Below the pieces are notes generated by a model that worked only from the letters and a program-made list of their open reading frames with translations, was not told the origin of the DNA and ran no database searches. Positions 24,330-35,408 of a DNA stretch of 64,000 nt are shown one piece after another. Origin of the DNA: Pseudoflavonifractor sp. MSJ-37. Lineage in GTDB: Bacteria > Bacillota > Clostridia > Oscillospirales > Oscillospiraceae. Within the stretch, counting starts at the first letter, position 1; each line of letters opens with the position of its first letter. A program made the position numbers and the translations under genes. Location of the stretch: positions 124,001 through 188,000 of the forward strand of contig NZ_JAHLPP010000002.1 of the NCBI RefSeq assembly GCF_018917965.1. Reading direction: 5' to 3'.

Positions 24330-25011
24330 CCTGAAAGTCCGCTACGGCGGCATCGAGGCCGTCAAGGGCATCAGCCTGGAGGTGCCTGAGGGCCAAATCG
24401 TGACCCTGATCGGCGCCAACGGCGCGGGCAAGTCTACTACTCTGCGGACCATCGCCGGCCTGGTGAAGCCCGCCGAGGGCCGCATCCAGCTCAAGGGGGA
24501 GGACATCACCGGCCTGGCCCCCGACAAGATCGTGACCCAGGGCATCACCCTGGTGCCCGAGGGACGCCATGTGTTCCCCGACATGACTGTGCTGGAGAAC
24601 CTGAAGATCGGTGCCTACCTCCGCAAGGACAGCCTGGAGGAGGACCTGAAGTGGATCTACGACCTGTTCCCCCGCCTGAAGGAGCGCTCCTGGCAGGCGG
24701 CGGGCACCCTGTCCGGCGGCGAGCAGCAGATGCTGGCCGTGGGCCGGGCCCTCATGTCCCACCCCAAGATCATGATGATGGACGAGCCCTCTCTGGGCCT
24801 GGCCCCCATCGTGGTGAAGGGCATCTTCGACATCATCCGGGAGGTCAACCGCCAGGGCGTCACGATCCTGCTGATCGAGCAGAACGCCAACATGGCCCTG
24901 AAGGTGGCCGACCTGGCCTACGTCATGGAGACCGGCCACATCACCCTCTCCGGCCCCGGCCAGGAGCTGATGAAGGACGAGGCCGTCAAGAAGGCCTATC
25001 TGGGCAAATAA
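24313..25011 (+). CDS. livF: ABC transporter ATP-binding protein LivF
   Basis: A 232-residue partner ATPase of LivG. Walker A is GANGAGKST, the LivF-typical ITLVPEGRHVFPDMTVLENL follows, then signature LSGGEQQMLAVGRAL and Walker B IMMMDEPSLGLAP. The start MLKISDLKVRYG at 24313 lies inside the end of livG with GGGGGTGG as ribosome-binding site. It closes the operon, with a strong terminator 15 nt downstream. Confidence 0.95.
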   Translation: MLKISDLKVRYGGIEAVKGISLEVPEGQIVTLIGANGAGKSTTLRTIAGLVKPAEGRIQLKGEDITGLAPDKIVTQGITLVPEGRHVFPDMTVLENLKIGAYLRKDSLEEDLKWIYDLFPRLKERSWQAAGTLSGGEQQMLAVGRALMSHPKIMMMDEPSLGLAPIVVKGIFDIIREVNRQGVTILLIEQNANMALKVADLAYVMETGHITLSGPGQELMKDEAVKKAYLGK

Positions 25012-25025
25012 CGGCATATGGACGG

Positions 25026-25057
25026 AGCGGACCGCCTGGAGGCGGTCCGCTTTTTTC
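25026..25057 (+). terminator. terminator of the liv operon
   Basis: 10-bp GCGGACCGCC/GGCGGTCCGC hairpin (25027-25050) with a TTTTTT tail. Confidence 0.92.
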
Positions 25058-25100
25058 GTGGCGCGTGGAACACAGGGCGGGATCCATCCCGGAAAAAGCC

Positions 25101-25129
25101 TTGTGCCTTCCATGGCGGTCATGTATAAT
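25101..25129 (+). promoter_or_regulatory. selAB promoter
   Basis: TTGTGC (25101-25106), 17-nt spacer, TATAAT (25124-25129), about 40 nt before selA. Confidence 0.7.
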
Positions 25130-25169
25130 AGGCACGTATCGAAATAGATGGAAACAGGAGGGACCCTCG

Positions 25170-26564
25170 ATGGATCGACCGCTTCTCCGGCAGCTCCCCA
25201 AGATGGACGCGCTCCTGGCCTGTCCGGCCTTCACCGCCGCCCGGGAGGAACTGCCCTACTTCGCCCTGAGGGACGCCGCCCGGGCCGAGCTGGACGCCCT
25301 GCGGCAGGGCATCCTGGACGGCTCCGTGGAGGCCCTGCCCGAGCCGGACGCCCTGGCCGCCGCCGCCGTGGTCCGGGCCCGGACCGCCTGCCGCCCCCAT
25401 CTCCGCCGGGTGATCAACGGCACCGGCGTGGTGCTCCACACCAATCTGGGCCGCGCCCCCATGGGCGAGGCCGCCGCCAAAGCCGTGTATGAGACCGCCC
25501 TGGGCTACTCCGATCTGGAGTACGACATCGACGCCGGACGCCGGGGGAGCCGCTTCGACCATGTGGAGCCCCTGCTCCGCTCCCTCACCGGGGCGGAGGC
25601 CGCTCTGGCGGTGAACAACAACGCCGCCGCCGTGTTCCTCATGCTCTCCGCCCTGGCCGCGGGGAAGAAGGTGGCCATCTCCCGGGGGGAGCTGGTGGAG
25701 ATCGGCGGGTCCTTCCGAGTGCCGGAGATCATGGCCCGCAGCGGGGCCGAGCTGGTGGAGGTGGGCACCACCAACAAGACCCACCTCTCCGACTACCGCC
25801 GGGCGGTGGAGGAGCAGGGGGCCCAGATCCTGCTGAAGGTCCACACCAGCAACTTCAAGCTGATCGGCTTCACTGAGGAGGTCCCCCTGGCGGACCTGAC
25901 CGCTCTGGGCCGGGAGCTGGGCGTCCCCGTGCTCCACGACCTGGGCAGCGGGGCCCTCTTCACCGATCCCGCTCTGGGCGTGCCCGAGGGCCCCACCGTG
26001 GAGGACAGCGTGAAGGCCGGGGCCGACGTGGTCTGCTTTTCCGGAGACAAGCTCCTGGGCGGGCCGCAGGCCGGCATCGCCATCGGCCGGAAGGACCTGA
26101 TCGGCGCCATGAAGCGGGACCAGTTCGCCCGGGTGGTCCGGATCGACAAGCTGGGCCTGGCCGCTCTGGAGGCCACGCTCCGGGCCTATCAGGACCACGC
26201 CTACGCCGCCGCCCACATCCCCGTGCTGGCCATGCTGGGGGCCAGCCCCGCCGAGCTGGAGCGGCAGGCCCGCCTTCGGGCGGGGGAGCTCGCCGCCCGG
26301 CTGGGGGACCGCTGTGTCCTCTCCGCCGTCCCCGACGTGGGAGAGGTGGGTGGCGGGAGCCTCCCCGGCGTGGAGCTTCCCACCTGGGTGGTGGAGCTCC
26401 GTCCCGCCCGGATGTCCGTGGCCGCTCTGGAGAAGGCCCTCCGGAGCTGGGAGGTCCCCATCGTGGGGCGGGTCAGCCATGACCGCTGTCTCCTGGATCC
26501 CCGGACCCTGAGCGCCGCCGACTGGGCGGACATCACCGCCGCCCTGGACGCCATCCTGCCCTGA
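25170..26564 (+). CDS. selA: L-seryl-tRNA(Sec) selenium transferase SelA
   Basis: PLP enzyme that converts Ser-tRNA-Sec to Sec-tRNA-Sec using selenophosphate. It has 464 residues with the canonical RVINGTGVVLHTNLGRAPM and YDIDAGRRGSR motifs. The PLP lysine is in SGDKLLGGPQAG (K294), and the C-terminal VSHDRCLLDPRT is also typical. The ATG has CAGGAGGGA upstream; longer readings of this frame run back into livF and are not real. It is followed by selB after 47 nt and the tRNA-Sec gene 2 kb on, so the locus carries three of the four dedicated Sec components; selD is not in the window. Confidence 0.97.
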   Translation: MDRPLLRQLPKMDALLACPAFTAAREELPYFALRDAARAELDALRQGILDGSVEALPEPDALAAAAVVRARTACRPHLRRVINGTGVVLHTNLGRAPMGEAAAKAVYETALGYSDLEYDIDAGRRGSRFDHVEPLLRSLTGAEAALAVNNNAAAVFLMLSALAAGKKVAISRGELVEIGGSFRVPEIMARSGAELVEVGTTNKTHLSDYRRAVEEQGAQILLKVHTSNFKLIGFTEEVPLADLTALGRELGVPVLHDLGSGALFTDPALGVPEGPTVEDSVKAGADVVCFSGDKLLGGPQAGIAIGRKDLIGAMKRDQFARVVRIDKLGLAALEATLRAYQDHAYAAAHIPVLAMLGASPAELERQARLRAGELAARLGDRCVLSAVPDVGEVGGGSLPGVELPTWVVELRPARMSVAALEKALRSWEVPIVGRVSHDRCLLDPRTLSAADWADITAALDAILP

Positions 26565-26611
26565 GGGCGGACCCATATCGCAATGATAATGATGAAGAAG
26601 GAGCGCTTCCC

Positions 26612-28516
26612 ATGAAGCATATCATCATCGGCACCGCGGGCCATGTGGACCACGGAAAGACCTGCCTCACCCGCGCCCTCACCGGCGTGGACACCGACCG
26701 GCTCAAGGAAGAGCAGAAGCGGGGCATCACCATCGAGATCGGCTTCGCCCAGCTGACCCTCCCCAACGGACAGACCGCCAGCATCATCGACGTGCCCGGC
26801 CATGAGAAGTTCATCCGCAATATGCTGGTGGGCGCCGCCGGCATGGACGTGGTCCTCATGGTCATCGCCGCCGACGAGGGCTTCATGCCCCAGACCCGGG
26901 AGCATCTGGGCATCCTCTCCCTGCTTGGGGTGCAGAACGGCATCCTGGTCATCACCAAGGCCGACATGGTGGACGAGGAGTGGCTGGAGGCCATCGAGGA
27001 GGAGGCCCGGGAGGACGTGAAGGGCACCTTCCTCCAGGACGCCCCGATCGTGGCCGTGTCCTCCTACACCGGCCAGGGCATCGAGGAGCTCAAGCAGCTC
27101 ATCGTCAAGCTGGTGGAGGGCGCGGAACAGCGGAACCAGGACCGGCCCTTCCGCCTGCCCGTGGACCGGGTGTTCTCGGTGGACGGCTTCGGCACCGTGG
27201 TCACCGGCACCCTGATCGAGGGCTCCATGGAGCTGGGGGAGGAGGTCTGCCTCTATCCCAACGGGAAGAAGGCCCGGATCCGGGGCCTCCAGAACCACGA
27301 CACCCCCGAGGAGCGCGCCAGCGCCGGCATGCGGGTGGCCGTGAACCTGTCCGGCATCGACAAGGCCGACGTGAAGCGGGGCGACACCGTGGCCAAGCCC
27401 GGCTCTATGCTCCTCTCCCGGCAGATGGACGTCCAGCTCACCATGCTCCGGGACGCCCCCTATCCCGTCAAGAACGACTCCCAGCTCCACTTCCACCACG
27501 GCAGCCGGGAGCTGGTGTGCAAGTGCGTCCTGCTGGGGAAGGACAAGCTGGAGGCCGGGGAGACCGGCTTCGCCCAGCTCCGGTTCCAGGAGGACGTGGC
27601 CGTGAAGAACGGCGACCACTACGTGGTCCGGTTCTTCTCCCCCATGGTGACGGTGGGCGGCGGCATGATCCTCAACGCCGAGCCCGGCCGCCACAAGCGC
27701 AGCGATCCCAAGGTGCTGGAGGGTCTGGCCGCCCGGGCCTCCGGCTCCTCCGAGAAGCAGGTGACAGAGGCCCTGAAGCAGGCGGGGTCCGCCATGCCCA
27801 AGCACCGGGATCTGGCCAAGGCCGCCGGGCTCACCGAGAGCGAGCTGGACGAGTGTCTGGAGCGCCTGATGGCCGACGGCGAGGTGGTGGAGCTGGGCGG
27901 CCGCTACGTCTCCCACGACACCATCGAGGCCCTGTGGGAGAAGGCCGTGAAGCTCCTGGGGGCCTATCATGAGGCCCAGCCCCTCCAGCCCGGCATGAAC
28001 CGGGGCGAGTTCCGGGGCAAGCTCCTGCCCACCGCCTCCCCGGCGGCGATCGACGCTCTGGTGGACTACTACGCCCAGCACCGGGGCCTGCGGATCGAGG
28101 GCCCCACGATCGCCCTGCCCGACTTCCAGGTGGTGTGGAACTCCTTCTACACCGGCCTCAAGGACCGGCTCTTGGACCAGTGGGGCAAGGCCGGTCTGGC
28201 CCCGGAGAACGCCGACGACATCCTGGCCGCCTTCGGCAAGAAGGAGGAGGGCGCCCGTCAGGTGGTCCAGCGGCTCCTCTACGACGGCGATCTGGTGGCC
28301 CTGAACGGACAGATCCTCCTGCGGAAGGACTTCTACCAGAAGGCGCTGGACGCCCTGTACGGCCTCTTCGCCCAGAAGCCGGAGGTGATCCTGGCCGAGC
28401 TCCGGGACGCTCTGGGCATCTCCCGGAAATACGCTCTGGCCCTGCTGGAGCACTGGGACAGCGAGGGAATCACCCGCAAGACCGGCGACGTCCGCACCCT
28501 GCTGAAAAAAGTCTGA
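26612..28516 (+). CDS. selB: selenocysteine-specific elongation factor SelB
   Basis: A 634-residue EF-Tu-like GTPase that carries Sec-tRNA-Sec to UGA codons bearing a SECIS hairpin. The G1 motif is GHVDHGKT at residues 10-17, G3 DVPGHEKF, and G4 ITKADMVD. Beta-barrel domains follow, and the C-terminal third consists of winged-helix repeats (DLAKAAGLTESELDECL, LRDALGISRKYALALLEH) that bind the mRNA hairpin. AAGAAGGAG precedes the ATG. I saw no selenoprotein gene with an in-frame UGA in this window, so its clients lie elsewhere. Confidence 0.97.
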   Translation: MKHIIIGTAGHVDHGKTCLTRALTGVDTDRLKEEQKRGITIEIGFAQLTLPNGQTASIIDVPGHEKFIRNMLVGAAGMDVVLMVIAADEGFMPQTREHLGILSLLGVQNGILVITKADMVDEEWLEAIEEEAREDVKGTFLQDAPIVAVSSYTGQGIEELKQLIVKLVEGAEQRNQDRPFRLPVDRVFSVDGFGTVVTGTLIEGSMELGEEVCLYPNGKKARIRGLQNHDTPEERASAGMRVAVNLSGIDKADVKRGDTVAKPGSMLLSRQMDVQLTMLRDAPYPVKNDSQLHFHHGSRELVCKCVLLGKDKLEAGETGFAQLRFQEDVAVKNGDHYVVRFFSPMVTVGGGMILNAEPGRHKRSDPKVLEGLAARASGSSEKQVTEALKQAGSAMPKHRDLAKAAGLTESELDECLERLMADGEVVELGGRYVSHDTIEALWEKAVKLLGAYHEAQPLQPGMNRGEFRGKLLPTASPAAIDALVDYYAQHRGLRIEGPTIALPDFQVVWNSFYTGLKDRLLDQWGKAGLAPENADDILAAFGKKEEGARQVVQRLLYDGDLVALNGQILLRKDFYQKALDALYGLFAQKPEVILAELRDALGISRKYALALLEHWDSEGITRKTGDVRTLLKKV

Positions 28517-28543
28517 CCGATGCGTCATTTCGGCTCCGGCCGA

Positions 28544-28572
28544 TTGACAAAATCATCGGATCATGCTATGCT
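28544..28572 (+). promoter_or_regulatory. tRNA-Sec promoter
   Basis: TTGACA (28544-28549), 17-nt spacer, extended -10 TGCTATGCT with hexamer at 28567-28572. It is the best consensus promoter in the region. The inverted repeat ATATCAC (28584-28590)/GTGATAT (28612-28618) in the 5' leader ends exactly at the tRNA 5' end. Confidence 0.85.
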
Positions 28573-28618
28573 CATAGCCGTGAATATCACATTTGCCGAT
28601 AAAGCACGGCTGTGATAT

Positions 28619-28714
28619 GGGGATAGAAGGGTATCTGGTGAGCCCCGCGGTCTTCAAAACCGTAGAGGGCGGCGATCCCGCCTTGGTGAGTTCGATTCTT
28701 ACCTGTCCCCGCCA
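28619..28714 (+). tRNA. selC: tRNA-Sec (anticodon UCA)
   Basis: 96-nt tRNA with encoded GCCA end. The 8-bp acceptor stem pairs GGGGATAG with CTGTCCCC, as bacterial tRNA-Sec requires. The anticodon arm CGGTCTTCAAAACCG carries TCA. It has a long variable arm (about 28662-28687) and TTCGATTC in the T loop. It lies downstream of selA-selB with its own promoter and terminator. Confidence 0.96.
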
Positions 28715-31620: not shown

Positions 31621-32292
31621 ATGGAAAAAACGCTGGAGCCGGTGCTCCTGTCCTGCCCCCTGTTCCGGGGGATCCGGGCGGAGGAGCTGGGGACCATGCT
31701 GGACTGCCTCGGGGCGGTGTCCGTCCGGTATCGGAAGGGCCAGACCATCTGGCAGGAGGGCCGGGCCGTCCATCAGGTGGGCGTGATCTGCTCCGGCCGG
31801 GTGCTGATCCTGCGGGAGGACTTCTGGGGGGACCGGAGCATCCAGGGCCAGGCCGGACCGGGGGACCTGTTCGGGGAGGCCTATGCCTGCGGGGACGAGC
31901 CTCTGGGGGTGACGGTCCAGGCGGCGGAGGACAGCCAGATCCTCTTTCTGGACACGGAGCGGGTGCTGGGGACCTGCTCCTCCGCCTGCCCCTTCCACCT
32001 GCGGCTGGTGCGGGATCTGGTGGACGTGCTGGCCGCCAAGGACCGGATGCTCAGCCGGAAGATCGACCACCTGTCCCAGCGTGGCATCCGGCGGAAGGTC
32101 CTCTCCTACCTGTCCTGGCAGGCCCGGCAGGTCGGGGACAGCCGCTTCACCATCCCCTTCGACCGGCAGGGGATGGCGGACTACCTGTCCGTGGACCGGA
32201 GCGCCCTCTCGCAGGAGCTGAGCCGCATGAAGCGGGAGGGCCTGCTGGACTTTTATAAAAACCAGTTCCAGCTCAAGGGGAACGGGGCTTGA
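31621..32292 (+). CDS. Crp/Fnr-family transcriptional regulator
   Basis: A 223-residue regulator with an N-terminal cyclic-nucleotide-binding-like beta-roll (LFRGIRAEEL, GDLFGEAYACG), a dimerisation helix and a C-terminal winged helix (FDRQGMADYLSVDRSALSQE as the HTH). N-terminal cysteine spacing does not give a clear Fnr [4Fe-4S] set (Cys near residues 11 and 24 only, with others in TCSSACPF), so the effector could be a cluster, haem or none. AAGGGGAG precedes the ATG. It is divergent from the ferredoxin gene, and the palindrome between them is the likely binding site for activation and autorepression. Confidence 0.9.
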   Translation: MEKTLEPVLLSCPLFRGIRAEELGTMLDCLGAVSVRYRKGQTIWQEGRAVHQVGVICSGRVLILREDFWGDRSIQGQAGPGDLFGEAYACGDEPLGVTVQAAEDSQILFLDTERVLGTCSSACPFHLRLVRDLVDVLAAKDRMLSRKIDHLSQRGIRRKVLSYLSWQARQVGDSRFTIPFDRQGMADYLSVDRSALSQELSRMKREGLLDFYKNQFQLKGNGA

Positions 32293-32304: not shown

Positions 32305-32616
32305 AAGTCCCGCCCCTGTGGAAAACTCCACAGGGGCGGGACTCAGCGTGTCGAACGGGTCCGACACGCTTCTCAGAAATGGCAGGGCCATTTCTTCGAG
32401 GGGATGCAGGCCGCCGCGCGCACTCGCTGTGCTCACACACTTGCGGCCTGAGAAGTGTTTTTTCCGAGGCGCATGTCCTCGGAAAAAACGTCTCTTATCT
32501 GGTTCCATCGCCCGCGGGCGACGGAACTCTGCGAGGCTTTTGCATCTCCCGGCGAAAAAATGACCGGATGACAGACTAAGTCCCGCCCCTGTGGAAAACT
32601 CCACAGGGGCGGGACT
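32305..32616. repeat. structured intergenic repeat, copy A, between duplicated terminator hairpins
   Basis: Two identical 39-nt copies of a terminator hairpin (32305-32343 and 32578-32616, core CCCGCCCCTGTGG/CCACAGGGGCGGG) flank a 234-nt insert (32344-32577). The insert holds at least five stem-loops: GTGTCG/CGACAC, AGAAATGG/CCATTTCT, CAGGCCGC/GCGGCCTG, TTTTTTCCGAGG/CCTCGGAAAAAA and TTCC..CGCC/GGCG..GGAA. The insert is about 75-80 % identical by eye to copy B at 34780-35040, whose flanking hairpins are a different sequence. The T-tract (minus strand, for hsp20) remains only beside the 32305 copy. No protein-like frame is convincing. Confidence 0.85.
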
Positions 32617-32649: not shown

Positions 32650-33090
32650 TCACTCGATGGCGATCTTGTTCTCCTTCTTGGCCGCTTCGCCGTCGGACTT
32701 GGGGATGCTGACGGTCAGGACACCGTCCTCATACTTGGCCTTCACGTCCTCCTCCTTCACGCTGCCCACGTGGAAGGTGCGGGAGCAGGCGCCGGTGTAG
32801 CACTCCTGATGCAGGTAGCGGCCCTCGCCGGACTGGTCCAGACGGTGCAGGCCCTTGGCGGCGCTGACGGTCAGGTAGCCGTCCTGCAGCTCCAGGTCGA
32901 TCTGGTCCTTCTTACAGCCGGGCAGGTCGATGCACAGCTCATAACGATCGGAGAACTCCTTCACGTCCGCCCGCATCAGGCCCTTGGCATGCTTGCCATA
33001 CAGGGGGTTCAGTCCACCGAAAAAGTTGCGCTCGAAGGAATCGTCGAGCAGATCACCGAACACGTTACGATCAAAGATACTGGGCACCAT
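32650..33090 (-). CDS. Hsp20/alpha-crystallin small heat-shock protein
   Basis: A 146-residue small heat-shock chaperone. An N-terminal arm with NVFGDLLDDSFERNFFGG precedes the alpha-crystallin domain from YELCIDLPGCKKDQIDLELQ to KYEDGVLTVSIPK, and a short Lys/Glu tail ends in IAIE, the I-x-I-type motif used for oligomer contacts. The ATG is preceded by GGAGGAATGA-like purines. A CIRCE operator overlaps its promoter, so HrcA-controlled heat induction is expected. Confidence 0.95.
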   Translation of the reverse strand: MVPSIFDRNVFGDLLDDSFERNFFGGLNPLYGKHAKGLMRADVKEFSDRYELCIDLPGCKKDQIDLELQDGYLTVSAAKGLHRLDQSGEGRYLHQECYTGACSRTFHVGSVKEEDVKAKYEDGVLTVSIPKSDGEAAKKENKIAIE

Positions 33091-34745: not shown

Positions 34746-35074
34746 GCGGGAGCCGTCCTGATGGCAGGACGGCTCCCGTCAGCGTGTCGAAAAAGTTCGA
34801 CACGCTTCTCAGAAATGCCAGTTCGTTCTTTGTGAAGAACGAACTGGCATTTCTTCGAGGGAGATGCAGACCGCCACGCGCACTCGCTGCGCTCGCACAC
34901 TTGCGGCCTGAGAAGAGTTTTTTCTGAGGCGCATGTCCCCAGAAAAAACGCCTTGTATCTTATTCCGTCACCTGCGGGTGACGGAACTCTGCGAGGCTCT
35001 TGCATCGTTCCCCGTGAGAGATCACTTTTTTGACAGACTGGCGGGAGCCGTCCTGATGGCAGGACGGCTCCCGT
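34746..35074. repeat. structured intergenic repeat, copy B, between duplicated terminator hairpins
   Basis: Two identical 34-nt hairpin copies (34746-34779 and 35041-35074, core GGAGCCGTCCT/AGGACGGCTCC) flank a 261-nt insert (34780-35040). The insert is homologous to copy A from CAGCGTGTCG at its start to GACAGACT at its end. The second stem-loop is longer (AGAAATGCCAGTTCGTTC paired with its complement, about 34811-34855). A mini-terminator (GTGA/TCAC, TTTTTT) lies near 35016-35035. Only the downstream hairpin copy keeps a T-rich tail (GTTTCGTT) for the plus-strand gene. Confidence 0.85.
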
Positions 35075-35079
35075 TTCGT

Positions 35080-35331
35080 TCATCCCGCCTTTTGCTTCTG
35101 GTGGCGGTATTTCTCCCGGGTGGCCATACCGCCCCGGATATGTCGTTCAGCCTTGTTCTCCTCCAGGACCTGTTTCACCCGCCGGTACAAAGGCTGGTCG
35201 AACCGCGGCAGGCGCTCGCTCAGGTCTTTGTGGACGGTAGACTTGCTGACGCCGAACTTCCCTGCGGCGGCCCGGACCGTGGCCTTGTGCTCGATGATGT
35301 ACAGGGCCAGCTCCACGGCCCGCTCCTCCAT
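35080..35331 (-). CDS. spoIIID: sporulation transcription factor SpoIIID
   Basis: An 83-residue DNA-binding protein active in the mother cell during sporulation, acting with sigma-E and controlling sigK. The HTH reads TVRAAAGKFGVSKSTVHKDL, followed by SERLP and the basic C-terminal helix ERHIRGGMATREKYRH. The start MEERAVELALYIIEHK at 35329-35331 matches the family N-terminus and has AAGGGA close upstream; an ATG at 35367 lacks a ribosome-binding site. Its presence shows that the organism belongs to an endospore-forming lineage. Confidence 0.93.
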   Translation of the reverse strand: MEERAVELALYIIEHKATVRAAAGKFGVSKSTVHKDLSERLPRFDQPLYRRVKQVLEENKAERHIRGGMATREKYRHQKQKAG

Positions 35332-35379
35332 GTTTCCCTTCACGATATGACCACACTCCCCGCTCATGTCTACGCTGGG

Positions 35380-35408
35380 ACTATATGTCAGGGGAGTGGA
35401 GATCATGC
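35380..35408 (-). promoter_or_regulatory. candidate sigma-E promoter for spoIIID
   Basis: Minus strand CATATAGT (35380-35387), like the sigma-E -10 CATACANT, with GCATGA (35403-35408) 15 nt upstream. Plausible because spoIIID belongs to the sigma-E regulon in Bacillus. The rest of 35409-35581 is AT-rich with a loose inverted repeat TTTAGGAA/TTCCTAAA (35437-35444, 35490-35497). Confidence 0.4.

Follow-up and report, generated by a model that had tools for sequence, protein, structure and literature searches.

A miniature IS1182-family element of Pseudoflavonifractor sp. MSJ-37 flanked by duplicated copies of whole target hairpins

Introduction

The window analysed here is a stretch of 64,000 nucleotides (C2:124001-188000) from the genome of Pseudoflavonifractor sp. 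MSJ-37, which comprises 2.58 Mb in 18 contigs. In the middle of it, an insert stands between two identical hairpins, and the locus raises the question of how one hairpin came to lie, complete, on both sides of the same insert. A DDE transposase normally produces a target duplication of fixed length, and bacterial MITEs usually carry a short target repeat of fixed length. For the IS1182 family, repeats of 0-60 bp are listed in ISfinder.

The staphylococcal elements IS1272 and TnSha1, which belong to the IS1182 family, are described in the available text of two papers (PMC4923244, PMC5678879) as having hairpin targets, several of them confirmed terminators, with no preference for primary sequence at the target. 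As given in the accessible portion of Wan et al. 2017 (PMC5678879), an attack on the 3' feet that deletes the hairpin is proposed for IS1272 (pathway a), and duplication of the stem-loop is drawn as a hypothetical branch (Fig 13, pathway b). The same portion cites Siguier et al. for palindromic targets of some IS1182 members and holds no detailed data on them.

Results

Copy A consists of an insert of 234 nt (32344-32577, plus strand; left end CAGCGTGTCGAA, right end ...GACAGACT) between a left hairpin at 32305-32343 and a right hairpin at 32578-32616. As the initial annotation had stated, the two are identical over 39 nt and each is a complete hairpin, with a perfect 17-bp stem and a 4-nt loop. 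A homologous insert had also been claimed at copy B, and the same plan is indeed present there, where 261 nt of the long form (34780-35040, plus strand; L020) lie between identical 34-nt hairpins at 34746-34779 and 35041-35074. When direct repeats were scored at random sites of the window with the same geometry, none of 3000 had a repeat of score at least 28 abutting both ends, and a chance origin of the arrangement at copies A and B is excluded.

A Crp-type regulator gene (31621-32292, plus strand; matches to cNMP_binding and HTH_Crp_2) ends shortly 5' of copy A and is convergent with an Hsp20 gene (32650-33090, minus strand). An A-run, a T-run on the minus strand, occurs only to the left of the first hairpin, so that the claim of a T-tract beside one hairpin only holds for copy A; hairpin and A-tract together could be the terminator of the Hsp20 gene. 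Beyond copy B, the spoIIID gene (35080-35406, minus strand) ends shortly after the right hairpin, and its spacer was used for the empty-site comparison described below. The copy A hairpins (32305-32616) can also be read as inverted repeats, with 47-nt arms that are 85% complementary. The palindromy of each hairpin copy makes them direct and inverted repeats at once, and the whole insert could therefore pair into one large hairpin, or invert. When the window was searched against Rfam, nothing matched at the element; the only match above the gathering score was tRNA-Sec (28619-28710), which lies with selA (SelA) and selB (TIGR00475) among the selenocysteine genes at 24960-28710.

The core of the insert (at least 130 nt) is present in 30 copies in its own genome; a search at E <= 0.001 gave 35 rows, five of which are short. 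Its ends are fixed, CAG...CTG, and match the inverted repeats of IS1182-family transposons. Copies L001-L026 were oriented and their ends placed by the fixed CAGCGTGTCGAA... and ...TTTTTGACAG(T/A)CTG, except for the right ends of L001, L008 and L011, which are altered in sequence and were placed by hand; the right end of copy A, GACAGACT, is without the final G that other copies usually have. The TIRs, left CAGCGTGTCGAA and right, read inward, CAGACTGTCAAA, are alike at 9 of 12 positions and are of the CAG-n-n-TGTC type. The copies measure 229, 233-237, 241 and 260-261 nt, giving size classes of 229-241 and 260-261 nt, a difference located in the second internal hairpin. Only mechanical ORFs were found, and the spread of copy lengths makes a kept reading frame unlikely. 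L019 (C5:91224) is letter-identical to copy B across 261 nt although the two lie in unrelated hairpins, and movement therefore looks recent. Because the fixed ends match the inverted repeats of the family, the insert is assigned to a MITE of the IS1182 family. It is like bacterial MITEs in general in being short and without a kept frame, and in having TIRs, a target duplication and many copies; unlike them, it has as its duplication a complete hairpin of variable length.

No intact transposase of the IS1182 type was found in the 18 contigs; a C-terminal remnant with stops lies beside a CAGACTGTCAAA end and a hairpin. A genome of the same genus (G004) encodes an intact transposase of 526 aa, P0001, with CAGCTTGTCGAAAAGC at one end directly abutting a hairpin, and this sequence is present also in Pseudoflavonifractor sp. 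524-17 (L169). P0001 scores 380 bits against the NCBIfam model NF033551 (IS1182; cut-off 270), and the autonomous relatives L071 and L304 score 385 and 442. Residues D148, D297 and E424, invariant in a four-protein alignment (A1), probably form the DDE triad. The right end of several MITE copies (e.g. L009), read inward as CAGACTGTCAAAAAAGTC, is identical across 18 nt to the left end of the IS in Chakrabartyella piscis. Autonomous partners with matching ends are thus present in relatives, and only a dead remnant in the own genome; the matching ends suggest that an IS1182-family transposase moves the MITE of copies A and B.

The initial annotation had proposed that a non-autonomous element targets terminators and, on insertion, duplicates the whole hairpin. 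This is borne out by the own genome, where direct repeats of 20-41 nt flank 24 of the 27 copies that keep both ends and every such repeat is a complete hairpin specific to its site, and by the same pattern in autonomous elements of the IS1182 family. Among L001-L026, the repeats lie beside both ends, 0-4 nt off, in 24 of 26 copies. At these 24 sites, the hairpins differ between loci, again as claimed; within a locus, the two copies are letter-identical at 14 sites and differ at some positions at the other 10. The very long palindromic duplication that had been noted in the window (34-39 bp) is thus part of a range that varies with the hairpin, the feet of which lie 0-6 nt from the direct-repeat ends. 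TTT after the right hairpin or AAA before the left, within 6 nt, was seen at 16 of the 24 sites, as expected of intrinsic terminators.

The remaining copies are less complete. L016 and L017 keep both ends and have no duplicated repeat, L016 being without a hairpin; L028 keeps both ends with an internal deletion (208 nt) and has the right hairpin only; and in L027, L029 and L030 the left end is gone while the right hairpin is retained. Relatives of the MITE were matched in 20 of 60 genomes (own genome included) at E <= 1e-5. Among 40 loci from 12 of the other genomes, read by eye, 15 show a clear duplicated hairpin (L099, L101-L103, L105, L108, L110-L114, L122, L128, L133 and L134), the rest being partial, one-sided or without clear pattern.

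Sequence changes between hairpin copies of one site were also recorded. The two copies at L019 differ at 4 positions and are identical once one is reversed, and reversal likewise makes the copies at L072 identical, which differ at 2 positions. The inversion at L019 is probably recent, since its element is unmutated as compared to L020; an exact inversion next to such an element may mean that opening or re-copying of the hairpin is part of the transposition reaction. In L006 and L134, the copies differ by one paired stem change each, besides single changes, which could be due to terminator selection or to template-switch repair. The loop of the first internal hairpin of the MITE also occurs in both orientations, CTTG (L004, L021) and CAAG (L009, L018), resembling the inverted loops of the target hairpins.

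The inversions at L019 and L072 are template-switch-like events at target hairpins, and the copy A insert with its two hairpins folds much better than its shuffles (z -13), both of which would suit a structured RNA or hairpin that spreads by replication slippage or template switching, as the initial annotation had put forward. Against that origin stand the fixed TIRs, which also occur in a family that encodes a transposase, the dispersal of the MITE copies through the genome and an exact filled and empty phage pair for an autonomous relative. As fixed TIRs, dispersed copies and transposase-bearing relatives explain the data, slippage is needless; this claim was given up, and the explanation is considered very improbable.

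The phage pair gives an exact view of a site before and after insertion. In phage Javan87 (L304), an IS of 1538 nt lies between two 26-nt hairpins, and at the same position phage Javan90 (L306) carries a single hairpin; the flanks are identical over 90 nt to the left and 60 nt to the right, and the record lengths differ by 1564, that is, 1538 + 26. The empty hairpin of Javan90 stands 3' of a peptidoglycan hydrolase gene and runs into a T-run, so that by its look it would be a terminator. The inserted IS (record label transposase-IS1562), encountered only through the phage record, is autonomous and belongs to the IS1182 family by score.

For the MITE, all comparisons were made on diverged orthologous spacers, with a script that required stems of at least 8 bp. 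At the L028 site, one hairpin was scored in 7 of 9 orthologous spacers, and by eye the remaining two (L253, L258) have one imperfect hairpin each. One hairpin was present in two of three homologous spacers of the L022 site and two unlike hairpins in the third (L261), while at the copy B site a single hairpin occurs in G005 (L157) and two unlike hairpins in G008 (L150). A duplicated hairpin was not found in any of the diverged element-free spacers of these three sites. The single-hairpin empty sites called for by the initial annotation were thus mostly seen, and never a duplicated hairpin. For copy A, the spacer yielded no clean empty site, since the same gene pair was not found in the stretches examined from the six relatives that have the Crp-type gene. 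The spacer 3' of that gene in G005 and G008 (L147, L141) holds other repeat-like sequence, C/G-rich at its ends and containing TTTCTTTTC...GAAAAGAAA dyads, which may represent a further family of mobile repeats. For L301 and L305, the flanks matched only their own record, and those of L303 gave six full-length record matches, all six with the IS, plus one partial match.

It could be argued that the hairpins are owned by the element, or that they are two independent look-alike terminators of convergent genes; the genes around copy A do converge on the insert, and the diverged empty sites L261 and L150 have two unlike hairpins. Yet the hairpin varies between sites and is the same or nearly the same within a site, and for the autonomous relative one hairpin becomes two from Javan90 to Javan87, which contradicts both versions and leaves them the least probable of the explanations weighed here. 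Host-paired terminators as the origin of the hairpins were dropped on the strength of the Javan pair and the site-specific hairpin sequences.

Autonomous copies were surveyed in several sets. Relatives were present in 28 of 250 family genomes; among the 30 family loci listed, L068, L071 and L072 have duplicated hairpins of 29, 31 and 35 nt, and many others are incomplete or situated at the end of a contig. When 84,980 species genomes were scanned, 506 relatives were obtained, the best 80 of which were analysed with a uniform script. Both ends were seen in 62 of these 80, and 44 of the 62 have a duplicated hairpin (43 plus L234, with one mismatched stem pair in its repeat), 14 two different hairpins, 3 one and 1 none. 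The 14 with different hairpins are taken as possible products of recombination or misassembly between copies. In the other 18, where a single end could be read, that end adjoins a hairpin in 15 cases and has none in 3. Within these best 80, all nine copies in the complete genome of Chakrabartyella piscis and three of five in Oscillibacter valericigenes are duplicated. Independent insertion events are fewer than rows, because some loci recur within or across sets: L215 and L216 are apparently one insertion seen twice, and L176/L068, L173/L067, L169/L063 and L295/L072 are the same places. L228, an IS1182-type copy, has an 8-nt TAGCTCAA repeat and no hairpin, possibly a different insertion mode inside the IS1182-type group.

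In a sample of the phylum, the family model matched in 190 of 299 genomes, 51 above the cut-off. Of 30 loci listed, 26 were readable by eye, with hairpin repeats in 9 and none in 17; loci with GGGGCTGTC-type ends had no long repeat. The repeat scores of L275, L282, L289 and L290 in this set are meaningless, their windows being misplaced because the loci end short. Extra copies were fetched, 13 of 20 with a hairpin repeat and 7 without, the duplicated ones being distributed as 4/4 in G510, 3/4 in G314 and 2/2 each in G298, G415 and G479, as compared to 0/3 in G457 and 0/1 each in G426, G552 and G431. A relative was found in 330 plasmid and 13 phage records. Hairpin repeats were present in 5 of 7 loci (3 plasmid, 3 phage and a single viral-contig locus), and duplicated hairpins occur in three streptococcal phages and one Fusobacteriota plasmid. 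No repeat could be read at the copy on the Thermocaproicibacter plasmid, which lies where the record begins, and in one Enterococcus plasmid ISEfa7 is uninformative, its right end being cut by an IS66-family element. On the Thermocaproicibacter plasmid pTVN (L302), the IS1182 transposase adjoins a type III-A cas10 gene.

A first transposase tree of 94 rows was built after omission of 14 near-copies and of rows with ORFs under 380 aa; L284, L291 and L296 are absent from it, having no match to the query protein. In it, every hairpin-flanked row, 41 of them duplicated and 32 not, falls in a single group of 77 rows with a support of 98 (SH-aLRT, quick method), 4 rows inside the group being unflanked or unreadable. 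The G510 elements, from another transposase clade, also duplicate hairpins, and in a tree of 45 rows that includes it, the hairpin-duplicating L291 falls in a different, well-supported group. A single origin of hairpin duplication was dropped on the position of L291 outside the main group. As L291 groups apart, hairpin duplication either had two or more origins or is an old trait with later losses; its depth is unsure, since in both trees several long branches join and the label "none" given to L290 is provisional.

Discussion

The assignment of the insert to the IS1182 family, as a MITE with whole-hairpin duplication, has good support, and it is very probable that an IS1182-family (DDE) transposase mobilises it and duplicates whole target hairpins, presumably by attack at their feet. 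Over all sets, the repeat length is 14-41 nt and tracks the hairpin, with cuts at or near the feet. Given a length that is set by the hairpin and is not fixed, the probable point of attack is the pair of 5' feet of an extruded hairpin or cruciform.

An ordinary DDE insertion with a long, loose stagger has also to be weighed, in which terminators are merely safe places and selection keeps those insertions that leave them whole. Both window copies are intergenic, L016 has no hairpin, and terminator selection could explain the paired stem changes at L006 and L134, all in line with such a process. It fits poorly, however, with direct-repeat ends that coincide, or nearly so, with the stem feet over stem lengths of 7-17 bp, with a random expectation in which just 56 of 20000 sites abut a perfect 8-bp stem, and with the recurrence of the same pattern in the streptococcal phages and the Fusobacteriota plasmid. 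It is considered unlikely, and foot attack is preferred.

Judged from the sequences, structure-directed attack on an extruded hairpin or cruciform is the best inference. The transposase would recognise the four-way junction or the foot of an extruded hairpin (a cruciform, or a hairpin in single-stranded DNA), and the two 3' ends of the element would be joined to the two 5' feet of the hairpin. The hairpin would then protrude single-stranded from each flank, and its second copy would arise as the gaps are filled. In a cruciform, the two 5' feet would be together at the junction irrespective of arm length; the duplication would be as long as the hairpin because the joining points adjoin at the junction and are 14-41 nt apart linearly. 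Single-stranded hairpins formed during replication may serve as substrate just as well as a cruciform.

IS1272 and the MITE both belong to the IS1182 family and both insert at hairpins. They differ in that the hairpin is replaced or partly deleted without duplication by IS1272, whereas the whole hairpin is duplicated by the MITE and the autonomous relatives studied here. The IS1272 mode, with the target hairpin lost or shortened, was not observed: both hairpins are present at most copies, and the empty site has one. The proposed 5'-feet attack with fill-in corresponds to pathway b of Wan et al. 2017, as drawn in the available part of that paper (PMC5678879). Hairpin-duplicating members differ from ISPse1 of the same family, for which a 4-bp repeat is tabulated in the accessible part of PMC3281130, and from the GGGGCTGTC-ended loci. 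Whole-hairpin duplication as an observed rule of the IS1182 family was not found in the literature searched, as far as its text was available, and may stand in ISfinder or in subscription papers beyond that search.

The present observations turn a hypothetical branch of a published model, duplication of the whole stem-loop, into a repeated natural outcome with an exact before-and-after pair. They also explain how the element enters a terminator and still leaves a complete terminator behind, and a high copy number would therefore be favoured. Paired terminators in Clostridia can be scars of transposition, and the hairpin repeats may break assemblies. The duplications give a genomic record of hairpins that were extruded or accessible as DNA in cells. 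Somewhat more probably than otherwise, IS1182-type transposases in a large group recognise the shape of DNA and not its sequence, and strike the feet of hairpins or cruciforms extruded at terminators, in which case each duplication of variable length would be a fossil footprint of hairpin extrusion in living cells.
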